A DNA stretch of 32,109 nt, from NCBI GenBank assembly GCA_030741055.1, contig JASLWC010000011.1:1-32109 (forward strand), read 5' to 3'. Positions 27,533 through 28,632 of the stretch are shown here, one piece after another. This stretch comes from Prochlorococcaceae cyanobacterium ETNP18_MAG_14 (GTDB lineage: Bacteria > Cyanobacteriota > Cyanobacteriia > PCC-6307 > Cyanobiaceae). Each line of letters starts with the position of its first letter. Positions within the stretch are counted from its first letter, which is position 1. The notes below the pieces were generated by a model, which was given only the letters and a program-made list of their open reading frames with translations, was not told the origin of the DNA and did not search any database. Made by a program: the position numbers and the translations under genes.

Positions 27533-27964
27533 ATAGGATCCCAGCAAGATTCTTGCTTGCAACAAGGCATGAGTGCAAAACCTTTTTATTTAGCAAGTCG
27601 TTCAGGTCTCCTTGATTTCAGATGTATAGAACTGAACCCTCGAAAGCAGTCCATCGCTTCATCTTGTTTAGTTGATATGGGCTGACAGCTTCCACAAAGA
27701 CTTGGCACTTGAATTATTGTGATCTTTATCAAAATGAACTCTGACAGCAATAGTGCCAGTTGACTTAGGGCTGAGTGAGTTTTAGTGAGAAGTTGATTAT
27801 AGCCCTGATTTATATCAGGGCTATTCCTTTGATCTGGGCTGCTGTGAGCAAGATCACAGATTTGATTGCTCCAGATCAATGCTTTGGATGCCAGTGAAAG
27901 CGATGGTATGTGCATCGGAGGCAATCAAGCTTTCTGTATTACATACGCTATCAACTTCAAGATC
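27533..27964 (+). other. Non-coding spacer upstream of the double-glycine peptide gene
   Basis: 432 bp without a convincing gene. The minus ORF at 27586-27924 has no recognisable domain. A small hairpin just after the exonuclease stop (agcaag / cttgct) is followed at a distance by ccttttt and may terminate that gene. A stronger hairpin is at 27799-27824. The rest presumably holds the promoter of the peptide gene. Confidence 0.4.
27799..27830 (+). terminator. Perfect 11-bp hairpin with weak T-run
   Basis: Arms atagccctgat and atcagggctat around a TTAT loop, followed by tccttt. It is 140 bp upstream of the double-glycine peptide start. It may terminate an unannotated RNA or be an attenuator in the peptide leader. 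Confidence 0.45.
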
Positions 27965-28186
27965 ATGACTACTTCCAACAGCGACTACCCTAGCGAAATT
28001 CTAGATCAGGAACTTTCCTTTACTGAACTTGAAAATCTATCTGGTGGCAAAGGGTTTAGCTATTCGCATGAATCTCTCGTGGTCACAACCAACGGCAGAA
28101 AGATCGTTCTAAAGAATCGGAGCGAATTCAAGGGGGATAAAGAGTATGAGAAGTATTTCAAGGAAAGAATCAAGGAGTTTGCATAA
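27965..28186 (+). CDS. Double-glycine-leader peptide (bacteriocin-type precursor)
   Basis: The track ORF opens at 27866. The ATG at 27965 is preferred because it starts a typical short leader, giving 73 aa. The first 28 residues (MTTSNSDYPSEILDQELSFT, then ELENLSGG) are acidic and end in a Gly-Gly processing site, the pattern cut by the peptidase domain of C39 ABC exporters. The remaining 45 residues (KGFSYSHESLVVTTNG..., ending YFKERIKEFA) are charged, lack Cys and are not like lanthipeptide cores, so an unmodified bacteriocin- or signal-like peptide is the best guess. No transporter is nearby. A terminator follows at 28249. Cleavage and function are inferred. Confidence 0.7.
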   Translation: MTTSNSDYPSEILDQELSFTELENLSGGKGFSYSHESLVVTTNGRKIVLKNRSEFKGDKEYEKYFKERIKEFA

Positions 28187-28248: not shown

Positions 28249-28280
28249 ACAGCCCTGCTAACCAGTGGGGCTGTTTTATT
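28249..28280 (+). terminator. Intrinsic terminator after the double-glycine peptide gene
   Basis: Stem acagccc / gggctgt followed by tttatt, 62 nt after the peptide stop. The cyanobacterial HIP1 octamer gcgatcgc lies just upstream (28238-28245). Confidence 0.6.
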
Positions 28281-28395: not shown

Positions 28396-28632
28396 CTATT
28401 TGGGTAAAATAGAACTGCTATCAAAGTAAATACCCTCCATGAGGTTATCGGTGCATTTATAAAAGCCTTGTGAGAATTTCTTATAGCCAGCATTCGTGCA
28501 TTTAATACTCACGTGATTTATTGTGTTGTCAAACTCTTTCAACGGCAGATAAATCTCTTTTGACAATGTAGATTCTTGAGAGAGGATAAGTGATGAGATT
28601 GCTGATAGTGTTATAGGAGTTATTTTGCGCAT
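28396..28632 (-). CDS. Small secreted-type orphan protein
   Basis: A 78-residue protein with a plausible signal peptide (MRKITPITLSAISSLILSQES), then a polar mature part containing two Cys about 16 residues apart (KCTNAGYKKFSQGFYKC) that could form a disulfide in the periplasm. An SD-like AGGTG lies 8 nt before the ATG at 28632. I recognise no family. It sits beside the double-glycine peptide gene, but on the other strand, with no proof of shared function. Confidence 0.5.
   Translation of the reverse strand: MRKITPITLSAISSLILSQESTLSKEIYLPLKEFDNTINHVSIKCTNAGYKKFSQGFYKCTDNLMEGIYFDSSSILPK

Follow-up and report, generated by a model that had tools for sequence, protein, structure and literature searches.

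A double-glycine peptide gene behind a CRP-type operator in a Prochlorococcaceae genome, a probable CCRG-2-like member of a CRP-governed peptide set

The window analysed here, a 32,109-nucleotide stretch of the draft genome of Prochlorococcaceae cyanobacterium ETNP18_MAG_14 (assembly G000), carries a conserved reading frame with a double-glycine leader behind a CRP-type operator shared with other genes, in an assembly where a CRP orthologue is also encoded, along with a cluster of NHLP exporter genes. Judged from these elements, the gene probably encodes a secreted, CCRG-2-like peptide, made from a single-gene unit within a CRP-governed regulon. Double-glycine peptides, CCRG-2 and cyanobacterial CRP are each already known, and the CRP–peptide link is the new part; no paper linking CRP to double-glycine (GG) peptide genes was found in the openly readable literature, and subscription papers, including the CCRG paper, may already report it.

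Translation of the forward strand at 27965-28186 gives MTTSNSDYPSEILDQELSFTELENLSGG as leader and KGFSYSHESLVVTTNGRKIVLKNRSEFKGDKEYEKYFKERIKEFA as core, in agreement with the original prediction of a 73-aa ORF, a 28-aa acidic leader ending in LSGG and a Cys-free 45-aa core. The frame is open upstream to 27866, and 27965 is the likely start because protein homology begins only at the MTT there; according to the original prediction, the track start at 27866 hides the leader. With no basic and six acidic residues (pI 4.1) and hydrophobic residues at -12, -7 and -4 relative to GG, the leader fits the double-glycine consensus ELx3E(I/L)x2(I/V)xG(G/A), quoted in PMC3140520, with which a short acidic N-terminus ends. 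Among 393 window frames of at least 40 codons, this ORF alone matches the consensus, which is the leader motif of C39-exported precursors, and does so with L at the I/V position. The leader profile recovers it within its own genome at E=4.9e-15. The core is strongly charged (11 K/R, 7 D/E), with no Cys, a pI of 9.6 and a GRAVY of -1.04. No match was obtained for the ORF in Pfam, for the peptide among solved structures or in the phage search, for the core among viral contigs, or for the window in Rfam, and the AF2 model, a strand pair followed by a helix, is too weak to help (mean pLDDT 55.7). An exact-pattern scan of a named GTDB collection with the ORF alone likewise returned nothing, relatives emerging only through whole-genome searches.

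Conservation shows that the frame is a gene. An orthologue with 74% amino-acid identity (L004) lies between the same exonuclease and deaminase genes in a genome of the same genus (G004), and its leader ends in GA, not GG. Relative to this orthologue, the ORF as a whole has a dN/dS of 0.23; the leader alone gives 0.45 and the core 0.13, and in the core synonymous and non-synonymous changes differ significantly (Fisher P=4e-5). A third core relative, 31% identical and again behind a GG leader, occurs in Prochlorococcus sp. MIT 0701; across 300 family genomes, the core profile found relatives solely in G004 and MIT 0701. A lack of homologues with a conserved GG site had been named as a ground for abandoning the prediction, and those found retain GG or GA. 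By its conservation, 27965-28186 is thus to be regarded as a real gene, and the substitution pattern points to purifying selection on the core, hence to a core that matters.

Table 1. Coordinates of the precursor gene and of the elements around it in the window.
Feature	Position	Strand	Basis or remark
Weaker CRP-like site TGTGATCTTTATCAAA, 9/10, 125 bp upstream of the first	27718..27733	.	Window sequence
Hairpin ATAGCCCTGAT-TTAT-ATCAGGGCTAT, perfect 11-bp arms, 140 bp upstream	27799..27824	+	Window scan; shorter arms in G004
CRP-type operator TGTGAGCAAGATCACA, perfect TGTGA-N6-TCACA, 106 bp before ATG	27843..27858	.	1 of 3 perfect sites in assembly
Second conserved element TGCTCCAGATCA, TGA-N6-TCA type, 8 bp after operator	27867..27878	+	Aligned promoters
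Conserved block GATGGTATGTGCATCGGAGG, probable -10/start region	27902..27921	+	Aligned promoters; role inferred
Conserved 5' message end at ATG (CAACTTCAAGATCATG)	27952..27967	+	Common to L004, L009, L021, L039
Double-glycine precursor gene, 73 aa	27965..28186	+	ORF translation; syntenic orthologue L004; dN/dS 0.23
Leader, 28 aa, ends ELENLSGG, MTTxNxDYxxELLDQEL group	27965..28048	+	Leader profile and consensus match
Core, 45 aa, predicted mature peptide, hydrophilic, Cys-free	28049..28183	+	Core profile; dN/dS 0.13
Intrinsic terminator ACAGCCCTGCTAACCAGTGGGGCTGTTTTATT, 62 bp after stop, -18.4 kcal/mol	28249..28280	+	Stem, then TTTTATT

The leader is far more widespread than the core. Copies recovered by the leader profile number four in the window genome and seven in G004, rising to at least 27 in MIT 0701 and, in a closed genome of another genus, to 18, and the leader group is present in 12 of 300 family genomes, three of the 12 being assigned by weak leader matches. 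In MIT 0701 and the closed genome the leaders are near-invariant (MTTFNTDYNNTELLDQEL...GG) while the cores have almost nothing in common. By its profile match, the window leader belongs to a picocyanobacterial double-glycine leader group joined to unrelated cores. The precursor, described earlier as unrecognised, is not named by NCBI's CCRG-2 model; it does not stand alone, being one of many picocyanobacterial short-leader GG peptides, a group partly modelled as CCRG-2. GG peptides with NTDY leaders are amplified in MIT 0701 and G270 (L065, L066, L077-L084), their leaders being almost identical and their cores unrelated. Such amplified copies, in MIT 0701 and in the other-genus genomes, have no CRP box; most of them are preceded by a 5' region of CACCAG repeats, possibly reflecting a second regulator or a spread cassette. 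A neighbouring GG-leader copy (G000:C47:4829-4912 and G004:C3:35572-35655) has one in-frame TGA in both genomes and is apparently a shared pseudogene.

As for regulation, the element connected with the gene is, from the aligned sequences, the CRP-type operator at 27843-27858, overlooked earlier, and not the hairpin. TGTGAN6TCACA is the CRP consensus in cyanobacteria as well as in E. coli (PMC2633013). In the aligned promoters both half-sites are fixed and the N6 spacer varies, and the operator stands at a fixed upstream distance, as in a CRP regulon. Downstream of the CRP sites the layout is TCACA-N8-TGA-N6-TCA, followed by a GATGGTRTGTNCATCGGAGG-like block. Six GG genes of G001 stand behind boxes (277570, 1006618, 1008247, 1011447, 1577252, 2234689), and their transcripts would be expected to begin about 60 bp past the box, in a GTRTGT-CATCGGAGG-like block. 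The counterpart of the weaker upstream site is perfect in G004, with the same 125-bp spacing (sites 9366 and 9491). A sigma-70 scan detected no -35/-10 pair, which fits an activator-dependent promoter while constituting no proof of one.

The hairpin 140 bp upstream and the terminator 62 bp downstream, both part of the original prediction, are indeed there. Perfect 11-bp arms occur six times in the window (four of them being one overlapping palindrome) against 0.25 per shuffled window. The hairpin was rejected as the gene's regulator because of its position upstream of the operator and its degenerate form at the C47 paralogue; it probably ends an upstream transcript and falls outside the peptide message. 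Of the "own regulatory frame" claimed for the gene, then, a regulatory element survives, but it is a shared CRP operator, with the hairpin upstream of it and outside the likely transcript. A separate 78-aa ORF on the reverse strand (28396-28632), with a signal-peptide-like start (MRKITPITLSAISSLILSQ...) and no Pfam match, lies between the GG gene and the deaminase gene and seems absent from G004, whose intergenic region is shorter.

A candidate regulator is encoded in the same assembly. The CRP homologue at G000:C85:35584-36273 (about 230 residues, 85% identical to the G001 copy) contains cNMP_binding and HTH_Crp_2 domains above cut-off, and a search of the PDB matched it to E. coli CRP; a CRP gene is thus present in the genome. 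Its recognition helix, SRETASR, resembles SRETVGR of E. coli CRP. A CRP orthologue occurs in 12 of the 12 leader-positive genomes against 59 of 300 family genomes (P=1e-9 before kinship correction, the genomes being related), and every CRP-positive genome of at most 2.0 Mb (G000, G004, G059, G165, G189) contains the leader group. A second, different CRP gene was observed in the assembly (G000:C117:4796, 91% identical to the G001 copy). As two different CRP copies are present, this 79%-complete draft may mix strains.

The association between box and peptide genes can be followed beyond the window. Three perfect boxes occur in the 1.54-Mb assembly (expected 1.4; one for the reversed control pattern), and two of the three sit 106-107 bp before GG-peptide ATGs. 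The third, with the same downstream layout, precedes a metalloprotease-like ORF (L112 1501-2364, G000:C74) with the zinc-metalloprotease motif HEIGHALGLSH, whose Pfam matches fall slightly under cut-off. In the remaining four genomes of the genus there are 17, 16, 10 and 7 perfect sites, where about two would be expected. By manual count, an intact GG-leader ORF follows about 21 of the 53 perfect sites in the genus and a decayed one follows several more, over half of the boxes having no recognisable GG gene downstream. One box (L161; G003:C25, box 9334) stands before an ORF in which a Nif11-like leader containing GG is joined to a segment resembling type IV pilin (GFTMVEVIIAGLL).

A test made independently of the box took 95 distinct short-leader genes from 12 genomes, chosen by leader profile, and recorded perfect boxes up to 200 bp upstream. 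Such boxes precede 22 of the 95 genes, against 0.01 expected from shuffles, leaving 73 without one; in 20 of the 22 the box lies 80-108 bp before the ATG, and the boxed genes are spread over eight genomes and four genera. One CRP operator thus appears to serve many short-leader GG genes, that of the window included. A CRP operator was also considered for prochlorosin-type genes and rejected, the 20 Nif11/prochlorosin-type regions sampled in G001 (2,410,873 bp) containing no perfect box and a single 9/10 match, 188 bp upstream.

Candidate export machinery is likewise encoded on contig C85, where an NHLP/NHLM export cluster (TIGR03797, TIGR03794, TIGR03796) lies at a distance of about 3-10 kb from the CRP gene. 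Its C39/NHLP subunit (L063 2312-4552, G000:C85), the sole catalytic-type C39 subunit in the assembly, keeps the QLENTECGAAS motif but is interrupted by two in-frame TGA codons (near L063 3379 and 2695), at positions that encode Arg and Cys in relatives; the other C39-like ABC protein has no ECG cysteine motif. A C39 exporter, which the original prediction had suggested looking for in the same genome, is present, but its assembly copy is interrupted. Export here may consequently be failing or use another system; conversely, since the assembly may mix strains, the stops may be errors. The finding may thus reflect either ongoing loss of export in the organism or a fault of the assembly at this subunit. 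The box at the exporter operon is itself variable, being perfect and just upstream of the first gene in G004, matched at 9/10 in G002 and absent from G001 and G003.

Taken together, the following route is proposed. The CRP-family regulator, presumably with cyclic AMP, would bind TGTGAGCAAGATCACA about 70 bp upstream of the likely start point and activate transcription, which would stop at the 28249 terminator to yield a single-gene message. A C39-type ABC exporter of the NHLP/NHLM kind would then cut the 73-aa precursor after GG28 and export the 45-residue hydrophilic core. The gene would be one of a CRP-governed, short-leader (CCRG-2-like) set with differing cores, which most likely act extracellularly, on neighbouring cells or surfaces, this being the weakest step. 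That CRP occupies the site with cAMP as its ligand, that the precursor is cleaved and exported and that the core acts outside the cell is inferred from gene anatomy and family knowledge, and the nearest precedents for such a role of the core would be EbfG and CCRG-2.

Several other explanations address what the exported core does, or whether it is exported at all. One reading, on balance unlikely, is that it is a matrix or adhesion factor resembling EbfG1-4, exported to aid attachment or aggregation: EbfG proteins, with GG or GA leaders and C39 export, are required for biofilms (PMC4997328), in Synechocystis surface functions, type IV pili among them, are under the control of SyCRP1 (PMC2633013), and surface-like or pilin-like ORFs stand behind some of the other CRP boxes. 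A resemblance in sequence to named matrix proteins was not found, however, and according to PMC4997328 other cyanobacteria have no homologues of the mature EbfG proteins. A classical class II bacteriocin or microcin, killing or inhibiting related cells while the producer is immune, is less probable still, and decidedly unlikely. The double-glycine leader and the C39/NHLP exporter are what such a peptide would have, and hydrophobic, Gly-rich cores do occur in some of the paralogues of MIT 0701 and G270, one of which scores above the class IIb cerein cut-off (29.3 against 21.5 bits). The window core, on the other hand, is hydrophilic (GRAVY -1.04), no bacteriocin family scores above cut-off for the ORF (the CTB family model NF038167 gives 13.9 bits against a cut-off of 32, from the leader only), and no immunity-like gene adjoins it, the flanks being the exonuclease and deaminase genes that also flank the orthologue. 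The original label "bacteriocin-like" consequently went further than the core and its neighbours support.

The interrupted C39 subunit raises an unlikely rival to secretion, namely that the gene is a relic whose peptide is still encoded after export was lost in the lineage. The few leader copies here compared with at least 27 in MIT 0701, the neighbouring GG copy with a stop in both G000 and G004, and the replacement of GG by GA in the orthologue all agree with such decay. Yet the core evolves at a dN/dS of 0.13 behind an intact operator, and the two TGA codons lie in a 79%-complete, possibly mixed-strain draft with two CRP copies, where they may be errors. Least probable of all, and very improbable, is that the box is an NtcA site and the gene answers to nitrogen instead of CRP. 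NtcA is a CRP-family protein that recognises GTA-N8-TAC sites, to which the box bears a partial resemblance, and every genome of the genus has an NtcA-like CRP-family gene; the conserved bases, however, are the full CRP TGTGA/TCACA, and it is with the CRP orthologue that the leader group co-occurs (12/12 against 59/300). Secretion of a CRP-governed, CCRG-2-like peptide remains the preferred explanation.

A broader proposal, tentative and a little short of evenly balanced, is that picocyanobacterial CRP serves mainly as a switch for exported peptides: cAMP-CRP would activate many short-leader GG peptides with unrelated cores, the window gene among them, and would also act on certain further secreted proteins and, depending on the lineage, on the exporter operon, and the small-genome Prochlorococcus lineages keeping CRP would be those keeping the peptides. 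A shared operator bears on what triggers the release of small peptides in Prochlorococcus and on the roles they play: it predicts which peptides are co-expressed, points to cAMP as trigger and reduces the link to one regulator and one 16-bp site.

Comparison with known systems places the gene nearest to CCRG-2, secreted small peptides related to prochlorosins (PMC8120280, which cites Aharonovich and Sher 2016 as the CCRG source); the CCRG name derives from co-culture responsive genes, CCRG-1 being so described in PMC5974335. Likeness lies in the short double-glycine leader, the small predicted-secreted product and the multiple copies in Prochlorococcus and Synechococcus. The window leader differs by additional residues at its N-terminus (MTTSNSDY...), and the core is without a named relative. 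The CCRG-2 model NF033456 of NCBIfam (cut-off 24 bits) gives no match to the ORF at E<=10, while scoring 25.2 bits for an NTDY paralogue and 42.3 and 29.8 bits for CRP-box genes of G001 and G059. In the original CCRG paper, CCRG-2 peptides are reportedly released into the medium.

EbfG1-4/PteB of Synechococcus elongatus also combines small GG- or GA-leader proteins with C39-type ABC export, and the GA site of the orthologue has its parallel there (PMC4997328), but the EbfG genes are clustered beside the exporter gene whereas the window gene stands alone behind its CRP box, and similarity between cores is not reported for EbfG. Prochlorosins (ProcA/ProcM) resemble the peptide in their double-glycine cleavage site, multiple copies, variable cores and shared genus, but have a long Nif11 leader, Cys/Ser/Thr cores and a lanthionine synthetase. 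The ORF has no Cys, no match to TIGR03798 (Nif11) and no place among the genome's four matches to that model, and the CRP box, missing from the promoters of the 20 sampled Nif11-leader genes, sets the short-leader GG peptides apart; the original separation from prochlorosins is thus upheld in core, leader and promoter class. The cyanobacterial CRP regulon (SyCRP1), finally, shares the TGTGAN6TCACA operator and has a CRP orthologue in MIT9313-type Prochlorococcus, but its published predictions comprise photosystem, transport and hypothetical genes, with peptide genes unmentioned (PMC2633013, 2009).
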